From Chelativorans alearensis (lineage in GTDB: Bacteria > Pseudomonadota > Alphaproteobacteria > Rhizobiales > Rhizobiaceae): a DNA stretch of 64,000 bases. This document shows, one piece after another, positions 45,780 through 60,102 of this stretch. Under the pieces are notes generated by a model. It had not been told where the DNA came from and did no database searches. It was given only the letters and a program-made list of their open reading frames with translations. The stretch covers positions 186,001 to 250,000 of the forward strand of contig NZ_WQNI01000010.1 of the NCBI RefSeq assembly GCF_010993735.1, written 5' to 3'. Position 1 is the first letter of the stretch; each line of letters opens with the position of its first letter. The translations under genes were made by a program, and so were the position numbers.

Positions 45780-45861
45780 TGTGTCTCTCCATGGCTTCGG
45801 GAGGATTCGGGCTGGCGGGGACGGCCGCAAGAAACCTACAAGCAACAGCCATGCCAGGAGA

Positions 45862-46172: not shown

Positions 46173-46928
46173 TCACGCTCCCCCGATCAATCCATGCAGC
46201 ATATCGTATTGCTCTATGACAATGCGCTGGCGGCTGACAGAGATGATCCCCCGCTTCTGGAGCTTGTCGAGCGTCATCGTCACCCATTGTCGCGTCGCGC
46301 CAACGATGTTGGCCAGTTCGTCGTGAGTGATCTTCCTGTCGATATGGAGCCGGTTTCCATCTCTGCGCCCATAGGTATCGGCGAAGATTATCAGGAGATA
46401 GGCAAGCCTTTCGACGACCGAGCGCGTGCCCAGCATTTGCACGAGGGCCGAATAGCACTTGCCCTTGGCCACCAGACCGTCGATCAGGCAGATCGCGAAT
46501 TGCGGCATGGTTTCCACCAGACGGCGGATATTCGTGCCGGTCAGGAAAAGAAGCCGTGCATCCTCCTGCACATCGGCCGACCAGATATGGGCACCGCCGC
46601 CGAAGACTTCCGGCCCGCCGACGAAATGGCCGGAGGTCCAGATGGCGAGCGTGATCTCGCGGCCCGAGGGGCCGACATAGAAGGTGCGCACGATGCCGCT
46701 TTCGATGAGCCAGATGCCGTTGTGTGTGTCCCCCTGGAAGAAGATGCCCTCGCCGCGCCGGGCGGTGCGCGTCGTGCCGGCCGCGCGCAACCGGGTGATC
46801 TCGGCGGGGTCCAGCCGGTCGAGGAAACTGGCGCCCTCGTCGAGATCCAGCTGCACCTCGCTCAGATAGACTGCGGACCTGCGATCGTCATCGTTGCCGC
46901 GCGTATCGGACGGATTTTCCATCAGCAT
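46173..46928 (-). CDS. Crp/Fnr-family regulator
   Basis: The 251-residue protein has a cyclic-nucleotide-type sensor domain ('GEGIFFQGDTHNGIWLIESGIVRTFYVGPSGREITLAIWTSGHFVGGPEVFGG') and a C-terminal HTH ('DRKITHDELANIVGATRQWVTMTLDKLQKRGIISVSRQRIVI'). The cysteine cluster of oxygen-sensing Fnr is missing, so it is not an iron-sulfur Fnr. It overlaps the cytochrome c stop by one base and ends the long minus-strand array. It may report redox or effector state to that array. Effector unknown. Confidence 0.85.
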   Translation of the reverse strand: MLMENPSDTRGNDDDRRSAVYLSEVQLDLDEGASFLDRLDPAEITRLRAAGTTRTARRGEGIFFQGDTHNGIWLIESGIVRTFYVGPSGREITLAIWTSGHFVGGPEVFGGGAHIWSADVQEDARLLFLTGTNIRRLVETMPQFAICLIDGLVAKGKCYSALVQMLGTRSVVERLAYLLIIFADTYGRRDGNRLHIDRKITHDELANIVGATRQWVTMTLDKLQKRGIISVSRQRIVIEQYDMLHGLIGGA

Positions 46929-47593
46929 CACTCGAAATCCCCATTTGGCCGTTCGGTCGCCGCCAGATAATCCGCAAGGGCCTCGCGCTCGGCCGGCTCA
47001 AGGCTCTCGGCCAAGGCCTGCATTACCCCGCCAGGATCGTTGCTGCGCGCTCCGCTCGCGAAATCGGAAAGCTGCTTGAGGAGATAGTCCCGGTGCTGTG
47101 CCTCGAGCCACGGCACATCGGCCGCGCTAGCTAAAGGGCCGTGACAGTCGATGCAGGCGCGCAAGCCTGCCCGGCCGAGCAGGAATAGGTCTCTGCCTTG
47201 CGCGAAGCGGGGGCCCTCCTCCAGCACTGGCGGCGGTGGTGGCTGTTTGGCAAAATATGCGGCGATCTTCGGTAGGGCCTCCGGCTCGATCTCCATCGTG
47301 ACGGTCCCCATCTGCCCGCCGTCGTTGTGGCGCAGGCCATCTCGGAAATCGCGGAACTGCTTTTCTATGTAGGCTGTGCTCTGATGGGCGAGATGCGGGA
47401 AGCGCGGCACAGGGCTCACGCCCTGCAGGCCATGGCACAGGCCGCAAAGCTCCCATGGCTCCATGCCGTCCGTATCCAGCATGTCGGCTCCCGCGATGCC
47501 GGTGCACAGGCACAGAACCAGAAGCGCCTTCGCAAGACTGCTTGCCCAGGACTTCAGGCGGTCCGGTTGCTGTGGCGGTCGGGCGGTCTGCAT
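46928..47593 (-). CDS. Periplasmic dihaem cytochrome c (cytochrome c4-like)
   Basis: The 221-residue exported protein has two haem motifs, C50-G-L-C53-H54 and C147-I-D-C150-H151, with methionines later in each half ('GGQMGTVTM', 'GVMQAL'). This is the pattern of cytochrome c4 and cytochrome cL relatives. It would carry electrons in the periplasm. It lies between the PCu(A)C gene and the Crp/Fnr gene, in the operon with SCO, so a role as electron acceptor of the module is likely (inference). The signal peptide covers residues 18-37. Confidence 0.85.
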   Translation of the reverse strand: MQTARPPQQPDRLKSWASSLAKALLVLCLCTGIAGADMLDTDGMEPWELCGLCHGLQGVSPVPRFPHLAHQSTAYIEKQFRDFRDGLRHNDGGQMGTVTMEIEPEALPKIAAYFAKQPPPPPVLEEGPRFAQGRDLFLLGRAGLRACIDCHGPLASAADVPWLEAQHRDYLLKQLSDFASGARSNDPGGVMQALAESLEPAEREALADYLAATERPNGDFE

Positions 47594-47608
47594 CGGCGTT
47601 GTGCCTTC

Positions 47609-48127
47609 TCAGGATTTCGGCATCGCTGCTCGGTGGCGGTGATTTTCGTGCTGGCCGTCCGCCTCATGAACTAGCGCTTCGAAGGAAAGGCTCGTCCCAT
47701 CCGCGAAGAGGAGGCGGACCGGCAGCGTCTTGTTCTCCTGGTGCTCGGGCCCGGCGCCAGTCAGCATCAGATGCAGTTCTTGCGGGCGGAACGAGGCGCT
47801 TTGGCCGGGCGGCACCGTTAGCTGTTCCACGGGGGTCATGCGGGTCAGCCCGCTGGCTGTTGTCGTCTCGTGAATGACGCCGCGCCTGAAGCCGGGACTC
47901 TCGGCGCCGATAATGACGAGGGGAGCGGTGCCGCCGTTGACCAGCTCGAAATAGACGGCCCGGGTATCCACGCCTGGAACGCCGCGCGGGGACCATGCCT
48001 GCCTGACCTTGACCGGCGCGGCAACGCTGGCAGGGTGGGCGCCATGGTCGTGCGCGGCAGCGGGACGCAGAGGCATGGCAGAGGCCGTGAGGGCTGCCAT
48101 AAGTATTGTCCAGAACGGAAGCTTCAT
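47609..48127 (-). CDS. Periplasmic copper chaperone PCu(A)C
   Basis: The 172-residue protein has a signal peptide and the full copper-binding pattern H86-x10-M97-x21-H119-x-M121 of PCu(A)C proteins, plus His-rich ends ('AHDHGAHP', 'HENHRHRA'). PCu(A)C hands copper to cytochrome oxidase CuA sites with Sco. Here it lies between sco and cytochrome c in an operon with an ABC importer and without oxidase genes, which is unusual. Confidence 0.9.
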   Translation of the reverse strand: MKLPFWTILMAALTASAMPLRPAAAHDHGAHPASVAAPVKVRQAWSPRGVPGVDTRAVYFELVNGGTAPLVIIGAESPGFRRGVIHETTTASGLTRMTPVEQLTVPPGQSASFRPQELHLMLTGAGPEHQENKTLPVRLLFADGTSLSFEALVHEADGQHENHRHRAAMPKS

Positions 48128-48143
48128 TGTCGCGTCTCCCGGC

Positions 48144-48743
48144 TCAGTTGATGCCTTCCATCCCGCGCAACAGCAGATGGAGGTAGTTGGCGGTGCCCTG
48201 CGGATGGAAGGGCGGGGTGATCTTGGCCTTCACCGCGCCCGCGGGATTGACCACGGCGACAGCGGCGCTGTGCACCACGTCATAGGCATCGTCGTCGTCG
48301 CTTTTCTTCTCCAGTCGGTAATAGGCGTCCAGGCCGTGGGCGAGACGAGCGATCTCGCCGGGCTCGCCTGTGATACCGATGAAGGAAAGGTCGAAATGCG
48401 CCACGTAGTCGGCCAACACCGGCCGGTCACGAGCCGGGTCCACGGCGAGGAAGACGATCTGCGGCAGCCGCTCGGGCGGCACCAGCATCGACAGCTGGCT
48501 TCTCACCGCTTCCAGATTGGCGAGCGTGAACGGACACACATCCGGGCAGTGGGTAAAGCCCAGGAAGACCAGCGACCACTGGCCCACGAGATCCTCGAGC
48601 GTGAAGGGCTCGCCCCTGTGGTCGGTGAGTTGGAAATCCCCGAGCTGCGAGGGTTCGTCGAGTATGACACCCTTCACGTCCTGCGCCAGGGCCGGCGCCG
48701 CGACCAGGAGGGTGAGCGCCAGACAGAAGGACCGTATCGCCAT
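48144..48743 (-). CDS. SCO1/SenC-family copper-binding thioredoxin-like protein
   Basis: The 199-residue protein has a signal peptide (residues 1-21) and the Sco copper ligands C66, C70 ('GFTHCPDVCPFTLANL') and H158 ('DVVHSAAVAVV'). Sco proteins deliver copper or reduce disulfides at CuA sites. It begins one base after the ABC ATPase stop and is followed 16 bases later by the PCu(A)C gene, so transport and copper genes share an mRNA. Confidence 0.92.
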   Translation of the reverse strand: MAIRSFCLALTLLVAAPALAQDVKGVILDEPSQLGDFQLTDHRGEPFTLEDLVGQWSLVFLGFTHCPDVCPFTLANLEAVRSQLSMLVPPERLPQIVFLAVDPARDRPVLADYVAHFDLSFIGITGEPGEIARLAHGLDAYYRLEKKSDDDDAYDVVHSAAVAVVNPAGAVKAKITPPFHPQGTANYLHLLLRGMEGIN

Positions 48744-48744
48744 G

Positions 48745-49599
48745 TCAGCGATCTTGCTCTTCGAAAGCCTTCAGGCTCTCGGATCGGATTTGCTCTAGGC
48801 ACTCTTTCTTGATCTCCATGAAATCCGGCGAGGTTGCCATGTCCAGCACGCGCGGCCGGGGGAGCGGCACAGCGAGATCAGCGATGATGGAGCCGGGGCT
48901 GGCGCTCATCACCAGAACGCGGTCGGCGAGGAAAATCGCTTCGTCGACGTCGTGCGTCACGAACACGACCGTTGTGCCGAACTCGCTCCAGATCTTCAGA
49001 AGGTTTTCCTGCATCATCAGGCGTGTCTGAGCATCGAGCGCGCCGAATGGCTCGTCCATCAGGAGCACGCTCGGATAGTTGGCGAGCGCCCGGGCTATGC
49101 CGACACGCTGCTGCATGCCGCCGGAGAGCTCGGTCGGATATTTGTCGGCGAACCTAGTGAGGCCGACCATTTCCAGGAAGGTGTTGGCGATCGAGCTGCA
49201 CTCAGCATAGCCGCGGCCGGCCACCTTGGGGCCGAAGGCTATGTTGTCGCGGATGGTCTTCCACGGAAATAGCGAATATTGCTGGAAGACCATGCCGCGC
49301 TCGGGACCCGGCTCCTTCACCGCCTCACCATCGACCTGGATCGAGCCCGTGCTCGGCATGATATAGCCGGCGATGGAGTTGAGCAGGGTCGACTTCCCAC
49401 ATCCAGAGGGACCCAGGAGACAGACGAACTGGCCCGGTGGGATATCGAGTGAGGTCTCCCTCACGGCCTGATGGGCATCCGCGCCGTGCCCGAAGCGGAC
49501 GGTCACACCCTTGATCTGAATGTGGCCGCGCCCGCCACTCTTGCCGCCGAAGCGCTTTGCCTTGCTGCGTGTTTCAAGCGATACGACTTGGACATTCAT
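48745..49599 (-). CDS. ABC transporter ATPase, sulfonate/nitrate/taurine type
   Basis: The 284-residue ATPase shows Walker A 'LLGPSGCGKSTLLNSIAGY', signature 'LSGGMQQRVGIARALANYPSVLLMDEPFGALDAQTR' and 'VTHDVDEAIFLADRVLVMSASPG', the SsuB/TauB pattern. ATG 49599 follows a GAGG site. It serves the permease and binding protein encoded upstream. It lies between the unknown membrane protein and sco. Confidence 0.9.
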   Translation of the reverse strand: MNVQVVSLETRSKAKRFGGKSGGRGHIQIKGVTVRFGHGADAHQAVRETSLDIPPGQFVCLLGPSGCGKSTLLNSIAGYIMPSTGSIQVDGEAVKEPGPERGMVFQQYSLFPWKTIRDNIAFGPKVAGRGYAECSSIANTFLEMVGLTRFADKYPTELSGGMQQRVGIARALANYPSVLLMDEPFGALDAQTRLMMQENLLKIWSEFGTTVVFVTHDVDEAIFLADRVLVMSASPGSIIADLAVPLPRPRVLDMATSPDFMEIKKECLEQIRSESLKAFEEQDR

Positions 49600-49609
49600 G
49601 CTCGATACC

Positions 49610-50299
49610 TCATGAAGCGTATGGATCGCCGAGGGCGAGGCCATTCACCCCGCGCGGCGCCGATGTCTTGCGTGGAGCCGTTGCGACAACGACGGCTATT
49701 GCCAGGAGGACGAAGCCCGCCGCTGCAAGCCATGGACCGGCGGGCTCCAGCCAGAGCGCGGTGGGTACGCCGAGCCCCAGCATGGTAAGGCCGACAACCC
49801 AGGAAGGCTCCGCGCAGGCCCCGACCCAGTGCATGCTGGCTGACGTAAACGCGCCCAGCAGCACACCGGCTGCGGCGAGGCCGGCAGAGGTGCATCGTTG
49901 GCCCGGGGCGGCCGTGAAGCGTCGATCCAAGAGTAGGACAGAAACCGTGGCGGCCATGGCGCCGAGCACCAGGACCGCGAGCGCCTTGGACGGCATGACG
50001 CTGAATGCCCATTCGGCGATGCCGAGGCCGAAATCGCGGTTCATGTAGCCCGTCTCCAAGAGCCACTCGTCGGCGGCGATGGAAAGGCTGTCGGAAAGCG
50101 ATGGCGTGGATGAAAAGATGATCCAGACATTCTTCGGCCAATTATAGCCGGCCCAATAGTTCGGGAGATGGCCGAACGCAAAGATGAGCGCGGCGAGCTG
50201 GACTGCATGGTGGAGAAGCACGAAACCGAACGCGATCCCCACCCACAGTCCACGCCGGGCCGAGGCGGCCTTGAGCGCAGTCACCGTCCGGCCCTCCAT
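49610..50299 (-). CDS. Membrane protein of unknown function within the ABC operon
   Basis: The 229-residue protein has about six hydrophobic segments. Landmarks are 'FVLLHHAVQLAALIFAFGHLPNYW', 'WPKNVWIIFSSTPSLSDSLSIAADEWLLETGYMNRDFGLGIAEW' and 'GAFTSASMHWVGACAEPSW'. I recognise no family. The ATG at 50299 overlaps the permease stop in TAATG behind GGAGAG, so it is translated with the permease. Conserved His, Cys and Met near membrane ends could bind copper (speculation). It may be an accessory part of this transporter. Confidence 0.75.
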   Translation of the reverse strand: MEGRTVTALKAASARRGLWVGIAFGFVLLHHAVQLAALIFAFGHLPNYWAGYNWPKNVWIIFSSTPSLSDSLSIAADEWLLETGYMNRDFGLGIAEWAFSVMPSKALAVLVLGAMAATVSVLLLDRRFTAAPGQRCTSAGLAAAGVLLGAFTSASMHWVGACAEPSWVVGLTMLGLGVPTALWLEPAGPWLAAAGFVLLAIAVVVATAPRKTSAPRGVNGLALGDPYAS

Positions 50300-51288
50300 T
50301 ACCGGGCTCTCCTCTGCCAGCCAAGGAAGGGCCGCATGAAGAGCCTGACCGCATAGGTGGAGAGCGTCCCGAGCCCACCGATGATCAGCATGCCGACGAC
50401 GATGTCGGGATAGTTGATGAGGGAGTAGGCGTTCCAGGTGAAATAGCCGATGCCATACTGGCCGGAGATGATCTCGCCGGCTAGCAGCGAGAACCAACTA
50501 ACGCCCATGCCGATGGCAAGCCCGGCTGCGATACTGGGCAGCGCGGCCGGCAGGATGACGTGCCACAATATCTGCAAGCGCGTGGCGCCCAATGACCTTG
50601 CCGCACGCACCAGAACCTCCGGCGTCTGCTCTACCCCATGCAATGTGTTGAGTACGACCGGGAAAAGGGCACCGAGGAAGGTGATGTAGATGATCGAGGA
50701 CTCTTCGGTCGGCCACATCAGGATGGCAAGTGGAATCCAGGCTACGGCAGGGATTGGGCGCAGAACCTCGATATAGGGGTAGATGGCGGCGCGGGCGATG
50801 CGCGAGCGCGCCATGGCGACGCCGACGGTGATGCCGAGGCCGGCGGCCAACAGATAGCCCGTCACAATGCGCTGCATGGAAACGCCGATATGGATGTAGA
50901 AATCCTGCGTCGACAGGTGTCCGAGGAAGGATTTGCCCACCTGGACCGGCGAGGGCGTGTTCTCAAAATCGATGTAGAAATTGAATTTGTAGAGCGTGGC
51001 GAGATGCCAGAGCACCAAGCCGGCAAGAAGGGCGCCCAGGCTGACTGTGAAGCTCGGGCCGTGGCTTTGAAGCAGGCCCAAGGCATGTGTAGCGAGGCTT
51101 GGGAGAGATCGCCGGGGCCCGCCTGCTTCGAACGGGGCAGACGGCACGGCGCGGGCCTCACCCGCGCTTATTTCGGCGGTCTCTAGTATCTCCAATTCGC
51201 TGGCGCGGGCTTTTACTGACATGGCGCTTCTGTTCCCCTGTGATGAATCGGCGTTGTGCTGTCGGGGAACACCGGCCGGGGCCGGCAT
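50299..51288 (-). CDS. ABC transporter permease, sulfonate/nitrate/taurine type
   Basis: The 329-residue permease has an extended N-terminal tail of about 75 residues, then six membrane segments and the EAA loop ('VRAARSLGATRLQILWHVILPAALPSIAAGLAIGMGVSW'). ATG 51288 follows GAGGAGG; an internal ATG at 51222 is the alternative. It starts 15 bases after the binding-protein gene. Confidence 0.88.
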   Translation of the reverse strand: MPAPAGVPRQHNADSSQGNRSAMSVKARASELEILETAEISAGEARAVPSAPFEAGGPRRSLPSLATHALGLLQSHGPSFTVSLGALLAGLVLWHLATLYKFNFYIDFENTPSPVQVGKSFLGHLSTQDFYIHIGVSMQRIVTGYLLAAGLGITVGVAMARSRIARAAIYPYIEVLRPIPAVAWIPLAILMWPTEESSIIYITFLGALFPVVLNTLHGVEQTPEVLVRAARSLGATRLQILWHVILPAALPSIAAGLAIGMGVSWFSLLAGEIISGQYGIGYFTWNAYSLINYPDIVVGMLIIGGLGTLSTYAVRLFMRPFLGWQRRAR

Positions 51289-51303
51289 TCCGGGCCTCCT
51301 CGG

Positions 51304-52674
51304 TCATTCGGTCGGAGCAAAGGTGGCCACGGCCGCTGCCATGTCGATTACTTCGCCGCCCGCTTCCGCCGCATAGGCGTCGGCTTCCGGCTTGCGCAGG
51401 AAGGTTTCGTAGCCGCCATCCGGGGTGTGTACGAAGAAGGCGGTCTTGCCGAAAAGCTTCAGTCCCGTCTCCTTGTCGTAGACATAGGTGGCATTGAGCT
51501 TGGCGCCGGTGGCCTCGAGTTCGGCGACCGCCTTCAGGAATTCGGGCAAGGTGCCGAACGTCGAGATGCCGTCGCGGGCATGCCATATCTCGTTGGGTAG
51601 CCCGGAATTGGCGGCCACGGGATCGACCAACGACGCCTTGTCCGCCGCATAATCGTGGCCCATCTCGGCGTAGGCTGCTTTCACGAAGTCCTCGGTGATC
51701 CAGGCTTCGAAATCGAGCGGCGGGATTGCCTGCTCGTGCGCCAGGACCGTGTGGTCGAATTTCAACGCCTCAACCCACTCGTCCTTGATGGTCGGGTCGA
51801 GCGTCAGGTGACCGCCCTTGGAGAAGTAGATGTAGAGCACCTCCTTCTCGACGCCGGTCCATTTCTCCATCTGCTCGACAGCTTTCATGGGGTCGGCCTT
51901 GATCCAGGCTCCGGCATCGATGATCGCCTTCACGAAGGCGGTGACGACCTCTGGATATTCCTTGGCGAAGTCCTCGCGGACAACGACGCCATGGAGATAG
52001 GGAACGCCGGCCTCGCTGCCGTCATAGATCTTGCGGCCAGTGCCGCGGAACTCCATCAGCTCCGACCACGGGCAGAAATCAGCATGGGCATCGATCTTGC
52101 CGGCGGCGATGTTCGCCGCGCCGACGGCGGGGCTCTGGTTCTTGAGCGAGACTTGCTCCACACCGATATCGGAATCCTGCAACGCCTTCAGAAGCATGCC
52201 CCAGGCGGCCGAGCCGACCGGGGTGGAGACCGCCTTGCCCTTGAGATCGTCGAAGCTGTAGATGTCCGATGCGACGGGGACGACCACCGCGTTTCCGCTG
52301 CCCTTCAGATTGTAGCCGGTTCCGGCCACGTAGAGGGTGCGCAGGGACTCCGTCTCCTGGAACTTGGCGCCATTGACGATCAGCGGATAGTCGCCCATCA
52401 CGCCGATATTCAGCTTGTTGGCGAGCATCTGGTTGGTGATCGGCCCGCCGGAGGTATAGTCGCTCCAGCTAATGTTGTAGGTCACGTCGGCATAGTCGCC
52501 GCCCGTGGGGAGGTGCTTTTCCAGAAGTTCAAGTTCCTTGACGACGATGCCGGCCATATAGGTGTCGGTGCACATGCTCTGGTGCCCGATGGCTATGTCA
52601 ATCGTCTTTGCATAAGCCGGAACCGAGACTGTCAGTGCGAGCCCGAGTCCGAGTAAAAGCGAACGGTATTTCAT
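51304..52674 (-). CDS. ABC substrate-binding protein with NosL-like C-terminal extension
   Basis: The 456-residue protein has a signal peptide ('MKYRSLLLGLGLALTVSVPAYA') and a binding-protein fold of the nitrate/sulfonate/taurine group ('IDIAIGHQSMCTDTYMAGIVVKELELLEKHLPTGG...GGPITNQMLANKLNIGVMGDYPLIVNG', 'FCPWSELMEFRGTGRKIYDGSEAGVPYLHG'). The last 65 residues ('LNATYVYDKETGLKLFGKTAFFVHTPDGGYETFLRKPEADAYAAEAGGEVID') go beyond the fold and look like the second half of the copper chaperone NosL; its CxxC-M motif is missing. Proteins of this group without the tail have about 320-340 residues. The ligand is unknown. ATG 52674 follows GAGGAG. Confidence 0.8.
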   Translation of the reverse strand: MKYRSLLLGLGLALTVSVPAYAKTIDIAIGHQSMCTDTYMAGIVVKELELLEKHLPTGGDYADVTYNISWSDYTSGGPITNQMLANKLNIGVMGDYPLIVNGAKFQETESLRTLYVAGTGYNLKGSGNAVVVPVASDIYSFDDLKGKAVSTPVGSAAWGMLLKALQDSDIGVEQVSLKNQSPAVGAANIAAGKIDAHADFCPWSELMEFRGTGRKIYDGSEAGVPYLHGVVVREDFAKEYPEVVTAFVKAIIDAGAWIKADPMKAVEQMEKWTGVEKEVLYIYFSKGGHLTLDPTIKDEWVEALKFDHTVLAHEQAIPPLDFEAWITEDFVKAAYAEMGHDYAADKASLVDPVAANSGLPNEIWHARDGISTFGTLPEFLKAVAELEATGAKLNATYVYDKETGLKLFGKTAFFVHTPDGGYETFLRKPEADAYAAEAGGEVIDMAAAVATFAPTE

Positions 52675-53021
52675 TGGCTGCTCCTCAGTGCCTGTTTGTC
52701 TTAGGCCGTCATAAGCAAAGCAATTCCTGTGCCAATTCTGTGGGTGCGAGTTGATGGTCTTCGTAACCCACTGATATATAAAAGATAACGGACTGTTGCA
52801 GCGCAACATGCGGTGGCTCCAAGAAAGGGCTGCCGCGAAATTGGAGCCTACGGGGGATGCAGATGCTTTCCGAATCAACAGGAAGAACGGGAAAGAAATA
52901 ATACAAGTTCAGCCATTCGACCTGTGGACAGCCGCATAGATGATCGGCAAAACAACAGGAGCAATGGCAGGTTTCATGCGTCCTGTTCTTTAATTATCGT
53001 GATTTTCGTCTGGCTGCGGGA
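52675..53021 (-). promoter_or_regulatory. Promoter region of the ABC/copper operon with a perfect dyad
   Basis: This gap of about 350 bases precedes the binding-protein gene. It contains TGTTGC-AGC-GCAACA at 52794-52808, a perfect dyad with six-base arms of the size used by GntR/HutC regulators. An AT-rich stretch (TATATAAAAG, about 52774) lies between dyad and gene. No coding frame is convincing. Confidence 0.45.
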
Positions 53022-53555
53022 TCAGGAAGCGCCGAGGTCCAGGAGTTGGGCGCGGACAGCGGGGCTATCCCATTCGAGGCTGCCCATGACTGCGTATGTG
53101 ACCTGGCCGGCGGGATCGAGAACGTAGCTGACCGGCAGCCCGCGAACATGCCAGGCAGAAGCGAGCTTGCTTGCCTGGTCGGTGAGGATCGGCAGCCCGC
53201 TATGATCGACCCGGTCGAGGAAATTGCCGATGCGTTCCGGCCCGTCGCCGAGATTGACGGCTAGGATTGCAAAGCGGTCGGCTGGGAGGCTGCGGCTGAG
53301 CCGGGCCAGTGACGGCATTTCCTTGCGGCACGGCGGACACCACGCCGCCCAGAACGCGACCACGAGCACTTTGCCCTGATAGTCGGCCAGGCGGTGGAGA
53401 TTTCCGGCGAGATCGGGAATGTCGAGCTCGGGCCCGGCGAGCGGTGAGGGAGCCGGCACCAGGGCCGTGGCGGTAGCGGGCCGCGGGATGGCGAGATGGC
53501 ATGCGGCTGCTGCGGCGAGCCGGAGCATCTGCCTTCTGCCGACGCGGCCTACCAT
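53022..53555 (-). CDS. TlpA-like periplasmic thioredoxin
   Basis: The 177-residue protein has a Tat-like signal ('MVGRVGRRQMLRLAAAAACHLAI') and a TlpA/ResA thioredoxin fold with C73-P-P-C76 in 'FWAAWCPPCRKEMPSLARLSRSLPADRFAILAVNLGD'. Such proteins reduce disulfides or copper-protein thiols in the periplasm. The start overlaps the GntR stop by seven bases. Together with Sco and PCu(A)C it suggests a need to keep metal-binding cysteines reduced. Confidence 0.88.
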   Translation of the reverse strand: MVGRVGRRQMLRLAAAAACHLAIPRPATATALVPAPSPLAGPELDIPDLAGNLHRLADYQGKVLVVAFWAAWCPPCRKEMPSLARLSRSLPADRFAILAVNLGDGPERIGNFLDRVDHSGLPILTDQASKLASAWHVRGLPVSYVLDPAGQVTYAVMGSLEWDSPAVRAQLLDLGAS

Positions 53556-54331
53556 CGCGGTACCCGCAGCTTGAACCTGTGGGCATCGGCGCGGCCGAAA
53601 AGATATTCGAAGTCGATCGGACGGCATCGGGAATCGTAGGTCAAGCGCTCGATGCGGATCAGCGTTTCATCGGCGTCGAGTCCAAGCTGGTCGCGCACCG
53701 CCTGCTCGGGCACCACGACATCCATCACGATATCCGCAAAACCGATCTCGACCCGCAGCGAGGTCTCGATCAGCTTGAATATATCTACCTTGGCAAGGTC
53801 GAGGCCGAGAAGCGGTTCGCCGATATCCAGAGGAAAGAAACTGATATCCATCGACATCGCCAAATTTGCCGCGATCCGCAGGCGCTCGATCCTAATTACT
53901 GGCGCGCCGCGCTCCAGCTGCAGTGCCTGGGCCACCTCCGGCGGCGCCTTCACCTGGCTTGTGCCCAGCACCTGCGAGCGAGCCGCAACGCCAAGTGGAG
54001 CCATGATCTCGCCGAAGCCTTGCAGGCGCCCTAGATCCTGGATCGCTGTCAGGTTCCGCACCAAATGGCCCTTGCCCTGATGGCCGTCCACGAGTTGGGC
54101 CTCGCTCAAGAGGTCGAGTGCCATGCGGACGGTGACGCGGCTTACGCCGAAGCGCTTCGCCAGTTCGCTCTCGCTCGGCAGACAGGAGCCGGGCGAATAC
54201 TCGCCCGAAAGGATGCCGTGCATCAGCTCATCCTTGATCTTTCTGTATTTGGGAACCCGGTTGACCTGTTGCGCCGCGGGGCGGCGAGGCACCTTCGGCG
54301 GTGCCGGCTCTGTGCCCATCAACAGTGCCAT
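53549..54331 (-). CDS. GntR-family regulator with UTRA domain (HutC-like)
   Basis: The 260-residue protein has a winged helix-turn-helix ('VPKYRKIKDELMHGILSGEYSPGSCLPSESELAKRFGVSRVTVRMALDLL', residues 25-75) and a UTRA ligand domain to the C-terminus ('ALQLERGAPVIRIERLRIAANLAMSMDISFFPLDIGEPLLGLDLAK...EAYL-type LTYDSRCRPIDFEYLFGRADAHRFKLRV'). It lies between the HEAT-repeat gene and the TlpA-like gene on the same strand and is the obvious local regulator. The dyad at 52794 is its best candidate target. Confidence 0.88.
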   Translation of the reverse strand: MALLMGTEPAPPKVPRRPAAQQVNRVPKYRKIKDELMHGILSGEYSPGSCLPSESELAKRFGVSRVTVRMALDLLSEAQLVDGHQGKGHLVRNLTAIQDLGRLQGFGEIMAPLGVAARSQVLGTSQVKAPPEVAQALQLERGAPVIRIERLRIAANLAMSMDISFFPLDIGEPLLGLDLAKVDIFKLIETSLRVEIGFADIVMDVVVPEQAVRDQLGLDADETLIRIERLTYDSRCRPIDFEYLFGRADAHRFKLRVPRW

Positions 54332-54405
54332 TGCCAATGCTCCTTCCTGGGTAGGCTCCGCTACCTGGGTCGAACAAAATAAAACGATTGCCGGCCGGGG
54401 ACTTC

Positions 54406-55362
54406 TCAGCCGGCGATGCGGCTTAGAGCCCACCGCACATTCTTGCGAACTTCCGGATCAGGATCATCGACGAGCTTTTCGAGATAGACAAGTGCGGCGC
54501 TGTCGGCGATCTCGCCGAGGGCCGCGGCCGCCTCCTTGCGAAGATTGCCGATCTGGTGATCAAGCGCGGCTGCTATCACATGGACGGCCTTCACCGCCTT
54601 CAGTTGACCAAGGCTACGCACGGCCTTCAGCCGGACCTGCCAATAGGAATCGTCGAGCAGGGCCATGAGCGGATCGGCTGCCTTGCGAAAGCCGGACCTG
54701 CCGAGCACCTCGGCTGCCGTTTCGCGCACGGCCCAGTCCTCGTCCCGCAGGGCGCCGACAAGCGCATCGGCGACATGGGGCGAGGCGGAAAAGGCGAGGG
54801 CGCCGACAGCCGTGCGTCTGACCTCGGCAGAGATGTCGCGGCAGCAGCCGATCAGCGCCGGCAGCGCCTCGTCGGGTTTCAGGTAGCCGACCACACCAAT
54901 TGCTTGAACACGAACGCCCGGTTCAGGATCGCCCAGGGCCTTCAGGCCGCACGTCAGCGCATTCGGGCTGCGCAATTCCTTGAGGCCGCGCAGCGCTCCG
55001 GCGCGCACGAACGCGCTGTCATGCCGCGTGAGCGGCAGGATCTGCGTCGCCGCTTGTGGGTCCTTCAACTCGGCCAAGCTGTCGGCCGCCGCCTGCGCGA
55101 CGCGCTGGTCGCCGTCCTGAAGGCCGAGGCCAAGGGCAGCAGCGGCTTCAGGGCCATCAAACTCACCAAGCGCGATGGCGGCCTGCAACCGCACTTCCGC
55201 GCTTTCGTCCCTGAGCGCGCTGCCGATATACTCTATGGCCTCGGGCGCGGCGGTGTCGGCCAGTTCCATCACCGCGACGCGGCGGACGGCCGGATCGTTA
55301 TCCGCCAGCCCGGCCGCCAGATCCTCGACGTCGCTGAAATCCTCGAACGGTTGAAGCACCAT
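54406..55362 (-). CDS. HEAT-repeat protein
   Basis: The 318-residue protein is built almost entirely of about ten HEAT-like repeats of some 31 residues. Each has a 'xxVRxxAxxALGxx' helix: 'DPAVRRVAVMELADT', 'SAEVRLQAAIALGEF', 'DQRVAQAAADSLAEL' and so on to 'DPEVRKNVRWALSRI'. No signal peptide. Such solenoids act as scaffolds or as phycobilin-lyase-like chaperones. It begins seven bases after the AprB-like ferredoxin gene, so it probably serves the AprA/AprB-like complex. Role unknown. Confidence 0.85.
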   Translation of the reverse strand: MVLQPFEDFSDVEDLAAGLADNDPAVRRVAVMELADTAAPEAIEYIGSALRDESAEVRLQAAIALGEFDGPEAAAALGLGLQDGDQRVAQAAADSLAELKDPQAATQILPLTRHDSAFVRAGALRGLKELRSPNALTCGLKALGDPEPGVRVQAIGVVGYLKPDEALPALIGCCRDISAEVRRTAVGALAFSASPHVADALVGALRDEDWAVRETAAEVLGRSGFRKAADPLMALLDDSYWQVRLKAVRSLGQLKAVKAVHVIAAALDHQIGNLRKEAAAALGEIADSAALVYLEKLVDDPDPEVRKNVRWALSRIAG

Positions 55363-55369
55363 GTCGACC

Positions 55370-55603
55370 TCACTTCAGCAGGTAGGGAATGTTGACGGTG
55401 ACGGCGCCGGTCGGGCAGTCCGCCTCGCAGGGCATGCAGTACCAGCACTCGTCATACTTCATGTAGGCCTTACCGGTGAGGTCGCTGATCCTCAGGACAT
55501 CGAGCGGACAGACATCGACGCAGACCGTGCAGCCCTTGTCGGCGATACATTTGTCCTCGTCGACGACGACGGGCACGGATGTGGCTGTATTGGCTAGCGG
55601 CAT
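55370..55603 (-). CDS. AprB-like 2[4Fe-4S] ferredoxin
   Basis: The 77-residue ferredoxin has C-x5-C-x2-C-x3-CP ('CIADKGCTVCVDVCP') and C-x2-C-x2-C-x3-CP ('CWYCMPCEADCP'). It resembles the electron-transfer beta subunit of adenylylsulfate reductase but lacks its C-terminal tail. It starts 24 bases after the flavoprotein gene. It is probably the direct redox partner of that flavoprotein. Confidence 0.88.
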   Translation of the reverse strand: MPLANTATSVPVVVDEDKCIADKGCTVCVDVCPLDVLRISDLTGKAYMKYDECWYCMPCEADCPTGAVTVNIPYLLK

Positions 55604-55627
55604 CGTTTCGGGCTCCCGGGCGGCGCG

Positions 55628-57364
55628 TCAGGCCTGTGCCTGGATACGCTGGTTGTAGTAGGCATCCTTCTCGTCGTCGGCGATTGGGATGATGTAGGGC
55701 TGGATCGGATGCTTCTCGCAGGCCATCGCGCCGTCCTGCTTGGACAGGAGAACGTGGCACTTCCATTGCTCCTCGTTGCGTTCGGGATGGTCCACTCGCC
55801 AGTGGTAGAGGCCCCAGCGGCTTTCCTGGCGGAAGAGCGAGGCAAATGCCGCCATGTCGGCGCAGTCCAGGATGCTTGCAACCTCGGTCGCGCGCATCAG
55901 TTCGTGTGCGTCGCGGGCGATCATGGCGTTCTGCATGTCTTCGCGCACCTCTGCCAGCCGTGACTGGCAGATCTCGTATTTCTTTGTCACCTTGGGCGGC
56001 TGCAGATAGTCGTTCACGAGGCGGCGGATCTTGTATTCGATCTGGTTGGGCGGAATGCCGTCCTCGCGCCTGGTAGGCGCCAGCACCCGTTCCTGTTCGG
56101 CGGCGATGGCTTCGCCGTCATAGTCTTCGAAATCCACCTGCGCCGCGAAATCGATTGCATCCTCGCCGGCGACGGCGCCGTTGGTGAAGGCGCCAAGCAT
56201 GTAGTTGTGCGGCACGCTCGCCATGTCGCCGGCGGCATAGAGGCCGGGGATGGTCGTGCGAGCGAATTCGTCGACATAGACCCCGGATGCGGAGTGGCCG
56301 GAGCAGAAGCCGATCTCGGAGATGTGCATCTCGATCATGTCGCGGGCATATCGCGTGCCGCGCCCATCGTGGAAGCGACCGCGGGTCGGGCGTTCCACCG
56401 TATGCAGGATCTGCTCGATATGGTTCGCGGTGTCCTCGTGCAAATGATTAAGCTTGAGGTAGACCGGACCCTTGCCCGACGTGAGCTCATTGTAGAATTC
56501 CTGCATCATCTGACCGGACCAGTAGTCGCATTCGATAAAGCGCTCGTTCTGGCTGTTGGCCGTGTAGCCACCGAAGGGGCCGGCGACATAGGCGCAGGCA
56601 GGACCGTTATAGTCCTTGATCAGCGGGTTGATCTGAAAGCACTCGAGATTGGCGAGCTTGGCGCCGGCGTGATAGGCCATGGCATAGCCCTCGCCGGAAT
56701 TGGCGGCATTCTCGTAGGTGCCGAAAAGATAGCCGGAGGTCGGTAGGCCAAGCCGCCCGGCCGCACCCATGCACATGATGACGGCCTTGGCTTTGATGAC
56801 CAGGAACTCGCCGCTTCGCGTGTTCACTGCGATGGCACCGGCCGCGCGCCCGCTCTTGCCGGTCAGGAGCCGGGTGGCCATGAAGCGATTGGAGATGAGC
56901 ACACGCATGCGCCGCAACTGGCGGTAAAGCGCCTTCTTGACGGTTTCGCCGTTCGGCATCGGCAGGACGTAGGCCCCCATGTGGTGGACCTTCTTCACGT
57001 CATATTCGCCGTTCTCGTCCTTCTGGAACCGGATGCCGAACTGGTCGAGCTCCTGGATAATGCCGTAGCAGTTCTGGGCATATTTATAAACGGCGGCCTG
57101 ATCGCAGATGCCGTCATTGGCGATGGTGATCTCCTTTGTGTACTGCTCAGGCGTCGAATGGCCGGGAATGACGGCGTTGTTCAGCCCATCCATGCCCATG
57201 GAGATGGCGCCCGAGCGCTTCACATTGGCCTTTTCCAGAAGGATGACCGTGGCGTCCGGGTTCTTCTTCCTGGCCTTGTAGGCCGCCATCGGCCCGGCGG
57301 TGCCGCCGCCGATGATGAGGACATCGCATTCCACTTCGGACAGGCCCGATCGGATATCATCCAT
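55628..57364 (-). CDS. AprA-like flavoprotein (fumarate reductase/APS reductase family)
   Basis: The 578-residue cytoplasmic protein has the FAD-binding 'CDVLIIGGGTAGPMAAYKARKKNPDATVILLEKANVKRSGAISMGMDGLNNAVIPG' at residues 13-67, 'GYLFGTYENAANSGEGYAMAYHAGAKLANLECFQINPLIKDYNGPACAYVAGPFGGYTAN' in the middle and 'GLYAAGDMASVPHNYMLGAFTNGAVAGEDA'. This is the pattern of adenylylsulfate reductase alpha and relatives; it has no transmembrane or haem partner. True AprA proteins have about 620-660 residues, and sat or dsr genes are missing here. The reaction may involve a sulfur compound (inference). Confidence 0.85.
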   Translation of the reverse strand: MDDIRSGLSEVECDVLIIGGGTAGPMAAYKARKKNPDATVILLEKANVKRSGAISMGMDGLNNAVIPGHSTPEQYTKEITIANDGICDQAAVYKYAQNCYGIIQELDQFGIRFQKDENGEYDVKKVHHMGAYVLPMPNGETVKKALYRQLRRMRVLISNRFMATRLLTGKSGRAAGAIAVNTRSGEFLVIKAKAVIMCMGAAGRLGLPTSGYLFGTYENAANSGEGYAMAYHAGAKLANLECFQINPLIKDYNGPACAYVAGPFGGYTANSQNERFIECDYWSGQMMQEFYNELTSGKGPVYLKLNHLHEDTANHIEQILHTVERPTRGRFHDGRGTRYARDMIEMHISEIGFCSGHSASGVYVDEFARTTIPGLYAAGDMASVPHNYMLGAFTNGAVAGEDAIDFAAQVDFEDYDGEAIAAEQERVLAPTRREDGIPPNQIEYKIRRLVNDYLQPPKVTKKYEICQSRLAEVREDMQNAMIARDAHELMRATEVASILDCADMAAFASLFRQESRWGLYHWRVDHPERNEEQWKCHVLLSKQDGAMACEKHPIQPYIIPIADDEKDAYYNQRIQAQA

Positions 57365-57427
57365 TCCCGTTCTCCTGAAGAATAGGCTTCTGCGAGGAGG
57401 CTAGGCGCGAAGGCGTCACGCTGTCAG

Positions 57428-57754
57428 TCAAGTTATTGCCTTCGTGTCGGCCGTAAGTTCCGCGAGGAAACTCCAGGGATAGATCCCGCGGTCGTGGCCG
57501 TCGGAGAAGGCGATGTTGATGGCATAGCTGCCGACGGGATTGACTGCCGCGATGCGGACATCCACGGCGGGGGGAAGGGCAGTGCCCATCAGGCGCAGGT
57601 GCTTGGCCTTGGCCGACTGGCAGTTCTGCCGCAACACCACTGCCTCAAGCACGTCCTCGCGGCCATCGGCCCAGACGAGCGTCAGCCGGTCGCGCTTGGT
57701 GGAAACCCGTATTTCGCGCGGCGGGGCCTGCGGTGATGGCTCATCGGCGGTCAT
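57428..57754 (-). CDS. DUF971 protein
   Basis: The 108-residue protein matches DUF971 (the N-terminal domain of gamma-butyrobetaine hydroxylases, often encoded near iron-sulfur genes): 'LVWADGREDVLEAVVLRQNCQSAKAKHLRLMG' and 'IAAVNPVGSYAINIAFSDGHDRGIYPWSFL'. ATG 57754 follows GGAGGGAGAAGG. It lies 63 bases upstream of the AprA-like gene and may be its first operon partner. Possible role in iron-sulfur cluster handling (inference from family context). Confidence 0.85.
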   Translation of the reverse strand: MTADEPSPQAPPREIRVSTKRDRLTLVWADGREDVLEAVVLRQNCQSAKAKHLRLMGTALPPAVDVRIAAVNPVGSYAINIAFSDGHDRGIYPWSFLAELTADTKAIT

Positions 57755-57810
57755 GCCTTCTCCCTCCGTGTCGGGAAGGAAGAAAACCATTTCGCGGGGA
57801 ACGGGAATAG

Positions 57811-57820
57811 CAACTAGTTG
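57811..57820. promoter_or_regulatory. CAACTAGTTG palindrome in divergent promoter
   Basis: A perfect ten-base palindrome lies between the DUF971 gene (start 57754, minus) and the FdxA gene (start 57886, plus), a position suited to control both directions. It differs from the dyad at 52794 except for the shared CAAC/GTTG core. Confidence 0.4.
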
Positions 57821-57885
57821 ACTGAAGTCCCGGCATCTTCGGGCGCATGGTCGGATCGACTGATGAACGCCTCAAGGGGACAGCT

Positions 57886-58221
57886 ATGACCTTCGTCGTC
57901 ACGGACAATTGCATCCGCTGCAAATATACAGACTGTGTCGAAGTCTGTCCCGTGGACTGCTTTTACGAAGGCGAGAACATGCTCGTCATCAATCCCGACG
58001 AATGCATCGATTGCGGCGTTTGCGAGCCCGAATGTCCCGCCGACGCCATCATTTCCGATGCGGCCGAAAGCGCGGAGGATTGGTTGGCGATCAATGCACA
58101 ATACGCCGCGGTCTGGCCCGTAATCACCGAGAAGAAAGATCCGCTTGCGGATGCTGAAGAATGGAACGGCGTTCCCGACAAGCTGCGCTTCCTGAGCGAG
58201 GAAGCGGCCGAAACCGCCTGA
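57886..58221 (+). CDS. fdxA: Seven-iron ferredoxin FdxA
   Basis: The 111-residue ferredoxin shows '[23 protein letters not shown]' and '[18 protein letters not shown]', the 3Fe-4S/4Fe-4S pattern of alphaproteobacterial FdxA. ATG 57886 follows AAGGGGACAGCT. It is followed by a ferredoxin-NADP reductase and a YeiH-type exporter and faces the AprBA-like operon, so it may carry electrons between NADPH and that complex. Confidence 0.92.
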
Positions 58222-58255
58222 GCGACATCCGCAACTCTTGGGGAATTGCCGAGCC

Positions 58256-59071
58256 ATGAACGTTATCACCAGCCCAGAAACCGTCACCGCCGCGGCACCC
58301 GCCGGGGCCCTCCTGCTCCGCGTCCTCGACGTGCGGCACTATACCGACAGCCTTTTCAGCTTTCGCACGACCCGGCCGGCAAGCTTCCGCTTCCGGTCCG
58401 GCGAGTTCGTGATGATCGGCCTGATGGTGAATGGTAAGCCCCTGTTTCGCGCCTATTCCATCGCCAGCCCTTCCTGGGACGAAGAGCTGGAGTTCTTCTC
58501 AATAAAGGTGCTTGACGGCCCGCTGACATCCCGGCTCCAGAAGATAAAACCGGGAGACGAGATTCTGATGCGCCAGAAGGCCACCGGGACGCTGGTCAAC
58601 GATGCCCTTGTCCCCGGCAGGCGGCTCTACATGCTTTCGACCGGGACCGGGATCGCGCCTTTCGCCAGCCTCATCCGCGATCCGGAAACCTATGAGAAGT
58701 TCGACGAGGTGGTCCTCACCCACACCTGCCGCCAGGTGGCGGAACTCCGCTACGGCATCGATCTCGTGGAAGCCATCCGCGGCGACGAGATGCTGGTCGA
58801 ACTGTTCGATCCCGGAAAGCTCGTGCACTACCCCACCACCACCCGCGAATCCTATCAACGACAGGGCCGCATAACGGACCTCATTCGATCGGGCAGCCTT
58901 TTTGCCGATCTCGGAGTGCCGGCTTTCGATCCAACAGTCGACCGCGTCATGATCTGCGGCTCCATGGAGATGCTGCGCGAGACCAAAGCCCTGGTCGAGG
59001 AGGCTGGGCTCGCCGAGGGCTCCAACAGTCGGCCCGCCGAATTCGTCATAGAGCGTGCCTTCGTCGAATGA
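58256..59071 (+). CDS. fpr: Ferredoxin-NADP+ reductase
   Basis: The 271-residue flavoprotein has the FAD motif 'RAYSIASPSWDEELEFFSIKV', the NADP-binding 'MLSTGTGIAPFASLIRDPETYEKFD' and the C-terminal 'MICGSMEMLRETKALVEEAGL...EFVIERAFVE', typical of bacterial Fpr. It exchanges electrons between NADPH and ferredoxin. ATG 58256 is used; an upstream TTG lacks a better site. It overlaps the exporter gene by four bases. Confidence 0.92.
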   Translation: MNVITSPETVTAAAPAGALLLRVLDVRHYTDSLFSFRTTRPASFRFRSGEFVMIGLMVNGKPLFRAYSIASPSWDEELEFFSIKVLDGPLTSRLQKIKPGDEILMRQKATGTLVNDALVPGRRLYMLSTGTGIAPFASLIRDPETYEKFDEVVLTHTCRQVAELRYGIDLVEAIRGDEMLVELFDPGKLVHYPTTTRESYQRQGRITDLIRSGSLFADLGVPAFDPTVDRVMICGSMEMLRETKALVEEAGLAEGSNSRPAEFVIERAFVE

Positions 59072-60102
59072 AGCGCTCGCGCGTGATGCATCTGGTTCCT
59101 GGCGTCGGCCTATGCCTCGCCATTGCCATAGCGGCCAGCGTTGCCGATGCACTGGGGAAGAGCATCTCCAGGGGGGCAGGGCTGGACGCGTTGGTTTTGG
59201 CGATCCTCCTCGCCGCCGCCGTCCGCGGGTTTCATGAACCCGGCACAAGGCTGCTGCCCGGCATCGATTTCAGCGCAAGAATTCTCCTGGAGGTATCTGT
59301 TGCGCTTCTGGGCTTGTCGATCAGCTTGCATCGGATCGCCGAAGCAGGGCTTAGTCTCCTCGGCATCATCGTCAGCGTCGTCCTGGTGTCGATCATCGCC
59401 AGTTATGTCATCTGCCGGTTGCTGGGGATCGGCAGGCATATGGCCGCCCTGATCGCCTGCGGCAACGCCATTTGCGGCAACTCCGCCATCGCCGCCATCG
59501 CACCCGCGATCCGCGCATCGAGGGAGGATGTTGTTTCAGCCATAACATTCAGCGCCATCCTGGGCGTCGCGGTCGTCGTTTATTTGCCGCTCCTCATCCC
59601 GTTCTTCGATCTTGCCGATCGCGAGTACGGCATCCTGGCCGGGCTGACGATCTATGCGGTGCCCCAGGTGCTGGCCGCCACCGCGCCGGCGGGCCTGCAG
59701 GCGGTGCAGATCGGCACGACCGTGAAGCTCATACGCGTGCTGCTGCTTGGGCCCGTTGTGATGGTCATGTCGGCACTCGCGGCAAGGCATCGCGCGGGGC
59801 AACCGGACGGTGCGGTCGTGCCGTCGGGATGGCGAGGGACTCTGGTTTTCACAAGAATGTTTCCTCCGTTCATCCTGGCGTTCCTGATGCTGGCCACGCT
59901 CAGCACCATGGGCTTTATCCCCACAAGTTTCGCCGCCGGCGCCCTGACCATCCACAAGGCGCTCGCGCTCGTCGCCATGGCTGGCCTCGGCCTCAGTGTC
60001 GATCTCCGGCTTCTCTTCCAAATCAGCGGCCGGCTGACGCTGGCCGTCACCGGATCGCTACTAGTGCTTATCGCGATCAGCCTTGCTGCAATCCGTCTTT
60101 AG
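59068..60102 (+). CDS. YeiH-family putative sulfate/sulfite exporter
   Basis: The 344-residue membrane protein has about ten segments and the family pattern 'RILLEVSVALLGLSISL', 'LIACGNAICGNSAIAAIAPAIRASREDVVSAI' and 'GLTIYAVPQVLAATAPAGLQAV'. Proteins of this YeiH/UPF0324 group are annotated as sulfate exporters and often accompany sulfonate breakdown. The gene is coupled to fpr by a four-base overlap. It is the best hint that the neighbouring module handles sulfur. Confidence 0.85.
   Translation: MKRSRVMHLVPGVGLCLAIAIAASVADALGKSISRGAGLDALVLAILLAAAVRGFHEPGTRLLPGIDFSARILLEVSVALLGLSISLHRIAEAGLSLLGIIVSVVLVSIIASYVICRLLGIGRHMAALIACGNAICGNSAIAAIAPAIRASREDVVSAITFSAILGVAVVVYLPLLIPFFDLADREYGILAGLTIYAVPQVLAATAPAGLQAVQIGTTVKLIRVLLLGPVVMVMSALAARHRAGQPDGAVVPSGWRGTLVFTRMFPPFILAFLMLATLSTMGFIPTSFAAGALTIHKALALVAMAGLGLSVDLRLLFQISGRLTLAVTGSLLVLIAISLAAIRL

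Follow-up and report, generated by a model that had tools for sequence, protein, structure and literature searches.

At positions 46173 to 60102 of a 64,000-nucleotide stretch of the Chelativorans alearensis genome (contig NZ_WQNI01000010.1, positions 186,001 to 250,000; the whole stretch is called the window here) lies a copy of a gene set that is scattered among bacteria and is little described. The core of the set is an AprA-like flavoprotein, an AprB-like ferredoxin, a HEAT-repeat protein, usually a DUF971 protein, and a TauA/SsuA-type ATP-binding cassette (ABC) importer whose binding protein has a NosL-like tail, and this module is carried by plasmids across phyla. It is possible, and we propose it tentatively, that the core is a nearly self-contained and often plasmid-borne means for the uptake and reductive cleavage of a sulfonate-like sulfur compound. 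In this genome the module also contains copper genes, which look like an add-on to the importer. A preliminary description of the locus had combined importer, copper proteins and AprBA-like complex into one sulfur and redox module, an interpretation that as a whole is partly supported.

That the reductase and the importer belong together is apparent from their co-occurrence. Among 398 Pseudomonadota genomes, 21 have the flavoprotein (threshold E <= 1e-120), 23 have the binding protein, with 20 strong matches and three weak ones (under 80 bits, in genomes G115, G182 and G332) that were excluded from the counts, and 20 have both. No genome with a strong binding protein lacks the flavoprotein (20 of 20; Fisher 8e-33, uncorrected for kinship); genome G088 carries the two genes far apart. 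The genome scans for the flavoprotein, the binding protein and the membrane protein discussed below scored only the top three to six candidates per genome, thus weak members may be missed. The pairwise identities of flavoproteins and binding proteins show only a moderate correlation (r 0.41 over 44 loci, reached in 0 of 2000 permutations). In a separate sample the binding protein occurs in 3 of 61 genomes and in 2 of the 16 of the genus, and the module is therefore patchy.

The same picture is given by the best 80 of 593 stretches with a related flavoprotein, 30 of which are Bradyrhizobium and some of which end at contig edges. With gene presence called by thresholds of our own choosing, here and in a wider table of 97 loci, HEAT is found in all 80, the ferredoxin in 79, DUF971 in 76, the binding protein and permease in 70 each and the ATPase in 69, with a Crp-type regulator in 60, a ferredoxin-NADP+ reductase (Fpr) in 49, the exporter YeiH in 27 and a GntR-type regulator in 19. 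Gene order differs between module loci. The closest named relatives of the flavoprotein among these 80 are from Labrenzia alba, a 'Rhodobacterales' strain and Stappia, at 87-88% identity. The co-occurrence, the synteny and the exporter linkage described below bear out the earlier claim that the AprBA-like pair, HEAT and importer are one recurrent module.

The flavoprotein is also present in 51 plasmid records, 12 of which (loci L131-L142) were examined and stand outside the counts over 97 loci. Flavoprotein, ferredoxin and HEAT occur together in all 12, and nine have an unbroken importer of the module type, these being the plasmids of Leptolyngbya, Pseudanabaena, Tsukamurella, Methylocystis, Aquabacterium, Methylobacterium, Cupriavidus, Mesorhizobium AR07 and Rhizobium acidisoli. 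In the actinobacterium Tsukamurella the flavoprotein and HEAT are fused in one frame, with HEAT behind the flavoprotein (35 bits). DUF971, which in the window is encoded at 57428-57754 (PF06155; minus strand, as for all window features unless the plus strand is named), is found in 4 of the 12 plasmid loci, and in all three cyanobacterial plasmids an Mrp ATPase stands in its position; DUF971 or Mrp is probably a maturation factor for the iron-sulfur clusters. On the Nostoc plasmid pNe_5 (L131:13695-21414) two HAD hydrolases, a methyltransferase, a GNAT protein and a FosA-like VOC protein lie between flavoprotein and ferredoxin, and downstream are a GNAT protein, an amidase (51% identical to a Methylocystis copy), metX and an O-acetylhomoserine sulfhydrylase.

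The flavoprotein of the window (55628-57364) scores 1052 bits against NF006131/PRK08275, where the curated cut-off is 587; the NCBI family name is fumarate reductase, which carries no tested function. Against the AprA model TIGR02061 it scores 150 bits, below the cut-off of 641.75, which is reached by no gene in the genome of the window. The nearest solved structure is 8a8o (4e-58), the alpha subunit of the assimilatory 3'-phosphoadenosine 5'-phosphosulfate (PAPS) reductase of Methanothermococcus thermolithotrophicus, followed by AprA of adenosine 5'-phosphosulfate (APS) reductase. In an alignment of 101 flavoproteins, including five plasmid copies (Nostoc, Leptolyngbya, Tsukamurella, A. caldus and Aquabacterium), 157 of 578 positions are invariant, and the motifs KVHH, CDYWSGQMM and CSGHSASG are almost or wholly so. 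The position of AprA Arg265 is occupied by Leu248 in 101 of 101, whilst His357 is retained in 101 of 101; Arg265 and His398 (A. fulgidus numbering) are presumably the active-site residues of AprA with a catalytic role. PF00890, an FAD-binding family, is matched at 5304-5900 and 7279-7392 by two further frames of the window, 429 and 1006 residues long (E 5e-7 and 6e-8).

The partner of the flavoprotein is a small 2[4Fe-4S] ferredoxin, identified from its reading frame (55370-55603), that matches AprB, the PAPS reductase beta subunit and other ferredoxins. Its eight cysteines and the motif ECWYC are conserved at >= 97% across 95 alignment rows, as expected of an APS-reductase beta subunit; in AprB the tryptophan beside the cluster ligand has a functional role. 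The HEAT protein (54406-55362; PF13646, E 1.6e-62) matches one half of the model NF010374, of which the other half matches the flavoprotein, and it probably has a maturation or scaffold role. Both the replaced arginine and a different PAPS-binding loop set the flavoprotein apart from the M. thermolithotrophicus enzyme (PMC10322725). APS or PAPS reduction was considered as the reaction and rejected, given the change of Arg to Leu in 101 of 101 sequences and the score below the AprA cut-off. Judged by these sequence tests, the pair resembles an AprBA-type reductase in its build, yet is not an APS or PAPS reductase.

The importer consists of a binding protein (51304-52674; NMT1), a permease (50299-51288; PF00528) and an ATPase (48745-49599; PF00005), the last having nitrate-, Sao- and taurine-type models as its best matches, all below their cut-offs. 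An AlphaFold 2 model of the binding protein (mean confidence, pLDDT, 89.7) has TauA and SsuA as its best folds (6ssy and 3ksj, E about 1e-20), and these are also closest in profile searches, with scores that stay below the curated cut-offs (119 against 163.5 for the SsuA family model TIGR01728 and 91 against 304 for TIGR01729). As the modelled fold is closest to TauA and SsuA, sulfonate-type ligands would be the first guess. Homology of the C-terminal tail to NosL is indicated by hhalign of 45 tails against 24 NosL sequences (97.4%, E 1.2e-11) and by PF05573, which in the binding proteins of relatives is over its cut-off in G155 (E 5.7e-9), borderline in G170 and G072 and below in G088; the tail of the window protein itself gives no Pfam match. 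Models of the Sao proteins are matched below cut-off, with SaoA at 253 of 360, SaoP at 133 of 295 and SaoX at 33 of 300 bits.

Next to the reductase are found exporters of sulfur oxyanions. TauE/SafE and TauZ/YeiH are exporters of organosulfonate degraders, and a putative sulfate exporter of the YeiH/TauZ family is encoded on the plus strand of the window at 59068-60102 (PF03601, E 1.7e-53, 182 bits against a cut-off of 24.5; TIGR00698 104.7, below its cut-off of 232.6). In 38 of 104 loci (L138-L142 excluded), from many genera with Bradyrhizobium dominant, YeiH or TauE/SafE is encoded close to the module, and in Pseudanabaena both exporters are directly downstream of the module. In 22 genomes with the module, 8 of 28 YeiH genes are within ~5 kb of it, when 0.15 would be expected in 30 kb. 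Sulfite/sulfate exporters thus adjoin the module more often than chance would give. In the flanks, where 162 of 266 picked proteins were scanned and the two listings give the leading 25 of 80 and 25 of 61 families, so that a rarer shared enzyme could escape, no conserved downstream or carbon-catabolic enzyme stood out. Among the matches listed were 5 luciferase-like monooxygenases, 1 TauD, 1 sulfur-transport protein, 1 sulfatase, 2 TauE and 6 amidases, the amidases being the commonest flank family (6 of 90); as the copies are mostly ~30% identical, with a group of ~50% in Nostoc, Methylocystis and L128, they are not treated as core. Because exporters adjoin the module and no downstream enzyme stood out, sulfite is the likely product and the module is likely to be nearly self-sufficient.

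A further link between the parts is a shared control site. The palindrome CAAYTARTTG has 100 copies across 96 loci (1.95 Mb), of which 90 are within -1200 to +150 of the start of the flavoprotein open frame, with 6.6 expected (these counts omit L122, a stretch without the flavoprotein, which its genome, G088, carries elsewhere). It is present in the control region of 56 of the 96 loci and follows the type of regulator: 53 of 68 loci that have a Crp-type regulator carry it, against 0 of 21 where there is GntR only and 3 of 7 where there is neither. The 14-base form CAAYTARTTGCTWT has 16 copies in 10 of 14 whole genomes, 15 of them in or beside the module and the other ~16 kb from the module in G027, when the reversed control gives 4; a stricter 15-base form has 8 copies, all 8 at the module (control 3). 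Six genomes, of the genus containing the Bradyrhizobium contigs, have two copies, which lie in the control regions of divergent importer and reductase operons. The window has a single copy between the DUF971-flavoprotein operon and FdxA-Fpr-YeiH, the operator-like palindrome CAACTAGTTG (57807-57820, flank GCTAT), whose 14-base form occurs once in the genome; a second site was searched for upstream of the binding-protein gene and none was found. In the window alone the 10-base site is not significant (2 matches with one mismatch allowed, equalled in 12 of 100 shuffles).

The candidate regulator at CAAYTARTTG is the Crp/Fnr-family protein (46173-46928; PF00027 and PF13545), and in loci of the Crp type the reductase, importer, electron supply and sometimes the exporter probably form one regulon with little else. 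The window also encodes a GntR/UTRA regulator at 53549-54331 (PF00392 and PF07702). In the Leptolyngbya and Pseudanabaena plasmids a LysR-type regulator is divergent to the flavoprotein (L132:7391-9454 and L138:9691-11733), and its C-terminal half matches the binding protein of the module with 163 and 154 bits; this regulator may therefore sense the ligand of the importer.

Whilst the plain importer stays with the reductase, the copper genes do not. In the window these are a SCO/SenC chaperone (48144-48743; PF02630, E 7e-35), a PCu(A)C chaperone (47609-48127; PF04314, E 2e-23), a dihaem c-type cytochrome (46928-47593; PF00034, two CxxCH, PdsA-like below cut-off), a TlpA-like thioredoxin (53022-53627; PF00578, TlpA model below cut-off) and an orphan membrane protein (49610-50299). 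The full copper-bearing version recurs in Alpha- and Gammaproteobacteria, at 14 of the 97 loci; at the other 83, some of which end at contig edges, no copper set is seen. The hosts are Labrenzia/Stappia relatives, Rhodobacterales, a Rhodospirillaceae and a Filomicrobium metagenome-assembled genome (MAG), the MAG of an alphaproteobacterium and a gammaproteobacterial Granulosicoccaceae MAG, and from the named genera we take these loci to be mostly marine. The 14 loci show at least three arrangements of the copper genes amid those of the importer. The ligand loop of the binding protein reads GHQSMCTDTY, the sequence found in the window, in 14 of 14 copper loci, Met-Cys being found in 0 of 73 other binding proteins, which mostly have GTQDTT, and Cys202 is found in these 14 and in 2 more. 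The copper-type binding proteins group in a single clade (support 0.999) and their flavoproteins do not, so it seems that a cassette of importer and copper genes was passed from one reductase operon to another. The possibility, raised earlier, that the ABC/copper part and the AprBA/HEAT part occur independently of each other is thus half true, because copper covaries with the binding protein of the importer and not with the flavoprotein.

The membrane protein has no Pfam family and no fold match at E <= 0.001. It is absent from 19 of 22 module genomes, and a full-length match was found only in this genome among 385 genomes of the class; matches in G072 and G088 cover model positions 1-61 only and were discounted as what is probably out-of-frame upstream sequence in the alignment. 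Most of its relatives contain SWVVCCATPSWVVGL, a Cys-Cys-x-x-Pro motif that presumably resembles the Cys-Cys motif of MerT, and at residues 157-166 the window copy reads MHWVGACAEP where relatives have MSWVVCCATP, one of the two cysteines being lost. In Rhodobacterales copies (L070, L075, L077, L078, L081 at 7608-8390, and L116) a DsbA-like thioredoxin lies near the module, where the window has the TlpA-like one. The copper step of the preliminary description is not supported as part of a common chemistry, given the 83 loci without a copper set, the 19 genomes without the membrane protein and a NosL-like tail without the ligand segments. The whole module as a copper system was rejected on the first of these counts. 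Maturation of N2O reductase or cytochrome oxidase as the reason for the copper genes was rejected as well, there being no NosL match in the genome, three SCO genes besides the one in the window, and a set that lies among importer genes.

From these parts a scheme may be put together. The ABC importer, with its TauA/SsuA-type binding protein, would take up a sulfonate-like compound, and a soluble AprBA-like complex of a flavin adenine dinucleotide (FAD) subunit and a 2[4Fe-4S] subunit, matured or scaffolded by HEAT and DUF971/Mrp, would reduce it. Electrons would flow from NADPH (reduced nicotinamide adenine dinucleotide phosphate) to Fpr (58238-59071, plus strand; PF00970 and PF00175, PRK10926 below cut-off), then to the FdxA-type ferredoxin (57887-58222, plus strand, from its reading frame; an FdxA-like cluster recurs in 16 loci), to the AprB-like subunit and to FAD. 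On the model of APS reductase, sulfite would be freed through a flavin-sulfite step, and excess sulfite or sulfate would leave by YeiH or TauE/SafE. For the M. thermolithotrophicus PAPS reductase an attack of FAD N5 on the substrate sulfur with a flavin-sulfite intermediate has been proposed (PMC10322725). In the copper version SCO, PCu(A)C, the TlpA- or DsbA-like thioredoxin, the dihaem cytochrome and the CC-motif membrane protein would deliver copper to a site of His32, Met35 and Cys36 (plus Cys202) in the ligand loop, by which the importer would hold its ligand via Cu(I). What we infer here comprises the direction, the release of sulfite, the substrate class, the copper site and the roles of HEAT and DUF971, with all steps after import. 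A flavin oxidoreductase of ~1,150 residues, perhaps an alternative electron donor to Fpr, is encoded close to the module in Burkholderiales/Hydrogenophilales MAGs (L095:17196-20780, L100, L105 and L093) and on the A. caldus plasmid (L134:10574-14035); the copies are 43-46% identical, and the one scanned contains Pyr_redox_2.

A number of points weigh against reductive cleavage of an imported sulfonate by this module. We know of no precedent for flavin-driven reductive C-S cleavage of a sulfonate, and the chemistry of APS reductase is not simply transferable, as every flavoprotein aligned has Leu where AprA and PAPS reductase have an arginine. Sulfate is plentiful in marine and acid habitats, so that hunger for sulfur is a weak motive there. 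The flavoprotein occurs without the binding protein in G382, and in 10 of the 80 named loci no binding protein is within reach, some of these being truncated by contig ends. On the A. caldus plasmid pTcM1 the binding-protein gene is in two pieces flanking an ISL3-type transposase (L134:17770-20456), in the stretch examined of the Nostoc plasmid there are distant binding proteins only and no importer subunits were found, and in that of Mesorhizobium japonicum pMLa the module importer was not found. Of the 68 Crp-type loci, 15 lack the control site, and its 14-base form is missing in 4 of the 14 genomes. Many of the 38 loci with exporters are related Bradyrhizobium and the genome test amounts to three lineages. 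For the copper site, the NosL-like tail aligns without the N-terminal Cys/Met (CxM) segment and the GGMG loop, which in NosL are the metal ligands, and the covariation of loop and copper genes counts as one evolutionary event because the binding proteins are one clade.

It is conceivable, if unlikely, that the flavoprotein is instead a fumarate-reductase-like reductase of a C=C or C=O bond in the sulfonate-bearing import, with sulfite freed later by unlinked enzymes. Its place in the fumarate reductase superfamily, from which NCBI has named it, would agree with this, as would the loss of the AprA arginine with His357 kept, but among solved structures its closest relatives are the reductases of PAPS and APS, its partner resembles AprB and has the ECWYC tryptophan, sulfite/sulfate exporters adjoin the flavoprotein and no later enzyme stood out among the flank families listed. 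We consider equally improbable, though worth keeping in mind, a substrate with an S-S or S-N bond, such as an S-sulfonate, thiosulfonate, thiosulfate or sulfamate, that would give sulfite and a thiol, sulfide or ammonium with no need of further enzymes. Such good leaving groups should fit flavin N5 chemistry, no conserved carbon-catabolic gene stood out among the flank families listed, the soft-metal loop of the copper variant would fit a soft-sulfur ligand, and the Nostoc copy is near metX, O-acetylhomoserine sulfhydrylase and YeeE; the closest binding proteins are nevertheless TauA and SsuA.

Far less probable is a handling of organometals or copper complexes, in which the importer would take up a metal-bound thiol and the reductase free the metal or the thiol, in the manner of what is reportedly called the selenocysteine-assisted organometallic (SAO) system, said to be described by Haft and Gwadz in 2023. 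The sub-threshold matches of ATPase, permease and binding protein to SaoA, SaoP and SaoX suggest it, together with the NosL-like tail, copper chaperones and CC-motif membrane protein. However, the Sao scores are far under the cut-offs, by which SAO membership was rejected, nitrate and taurine models score equally or better, most loci (83 of 97) lack the copper set, the tail lacks ligand segments and a MerB-like lyase is not among the 20 window proteins scanned. It is very improbable that the parts are chance neighbours, with copper genes that mature cytochrome oxidase or another cuproenzyme and an AprBA-like pair unrelated to them. SCO and PCu(A)C do normally serve CuA sites, and the AprBA/HEAT part and plain importers are without copper genes in most genomes examined. 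This is at odds with a copper set that in 14 loci lies among importer genes in three or more arrangements and covaries with the binding-protein loop, with the three other SCO genes of the genome, and with a flavoprotein in every genome with a strong binding protein.

As to the locus itself, its proteins were identified by Pfam/NCBIfam profile search or by direct reading of the frame, and every protein named in the preliminary description is present where it had been placed, with small corrections in that the starts of binding protein, membrane protein and ATPase fall within their longest frames and the ferredoxin is at 55370-55603. The minus-strand array runs from the Crp/Fnr gene (46173) to DUF971 (57754) with overlaps or gaps of <= ~80 bp, the sole larger gap being one of 347 bp before the binding-protein gene, and FdxA, Fpr and YeiH are divergent from DUF971. 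A TRAP-type DctP binding-protein gene (window 44697-45845) adjoins the Crp gene, with similar genes in only two other loci by clustering, and just past YeiH are a glycosyltransferase and an epimerase/GDP-fucose-synthase-like gene (window 60951-63187).

For the release of sulfonate sulfur in air, bacteria are generally considered to depend on oxygenases or carbonyl-activating lyases. If true, the proposed cleavage would add to the organosulfur cycle a reductase route that is conserved over phyla and shared by plasmids, and would give a function to hundreds of genes labelled fumarate reductase (at least 593 related stretches). The copper version would allow one to ask cleanly whether a delivered metal can serve a binding protein to hold its ligand, and the conserved control site, with the cyanobacterial regulator that has the ligand domain of the importer, makes the substrate searchable by reporter assay. 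It is doubtful, on present evidence, that the full proposal holds, namely oxygen-independent sulfite release by an importer-dedicated AprBA-type reductase fed by NADPH and ferredoxin, on plasmids across phyla, together with copper-based, chaperone-loaded ligand recognition in mostly marine bacteria.

In the literature searched, with few terms and most subscription journals outside its scope, the core was met in one short prediction for a single plasmid group and in no experimental work. This concerns cargo of 'Fervidacidithiobacillus caldus' plasmids, given in PMC12375680 as 'ferredoxin/APS reductase/GntR' with a NitT/TauT sulfonate transporter and predicted to serve organosulfonate uptake, and the genes are the same as those on pTcM1. 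The prediction takes up one sentence and a figure legend, and the section that holds it does not mention HEAT, DUF971, the NosL domain, the operator or the copper version. The SAO system, which is defined by selenoproteins and a MerB-like lyase (PMC13188914), has an ABC importer of the same broad class, whereas the module stays sub-threshold for the Sao models.

Known organosulfonate degraders have the same exporter families as are found beside the module, whose genes include no known sulfonate-degrading enzyme. The sulfonate importers SsuABC and TauABC, which are paired with oxygenases, share the binding-protein fold and importer class, and luciferase-like monooxygenases or TauD occur in a few flanks of the module; it differs by the extra NosL-like domain on the binding protein and by a ferredoxin-linked reductase in place of an oxygenase. 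To the AprBA-type reductases, both the dissimilatory APS reductases and the PAPS reductase of M. thermolithotrophicus (8a8o; PMC10322725), the module is alike in an FAD alpha subunit that aligns near full length, a beta subunit that is small, of the 2[4Fe-4S] kind and has the tryptophan, and an active-site histidine that is kept. For the module an adenylyl substrate is unlikely, and it differs from these reductases in the new loop KVHHxGxYVLPMPxG, a beta subunit of only 77 residues, scores below the AprA cut-offs and the change of Arg to Leu, and in having HEAT, DUF971 and an importer as its partners.

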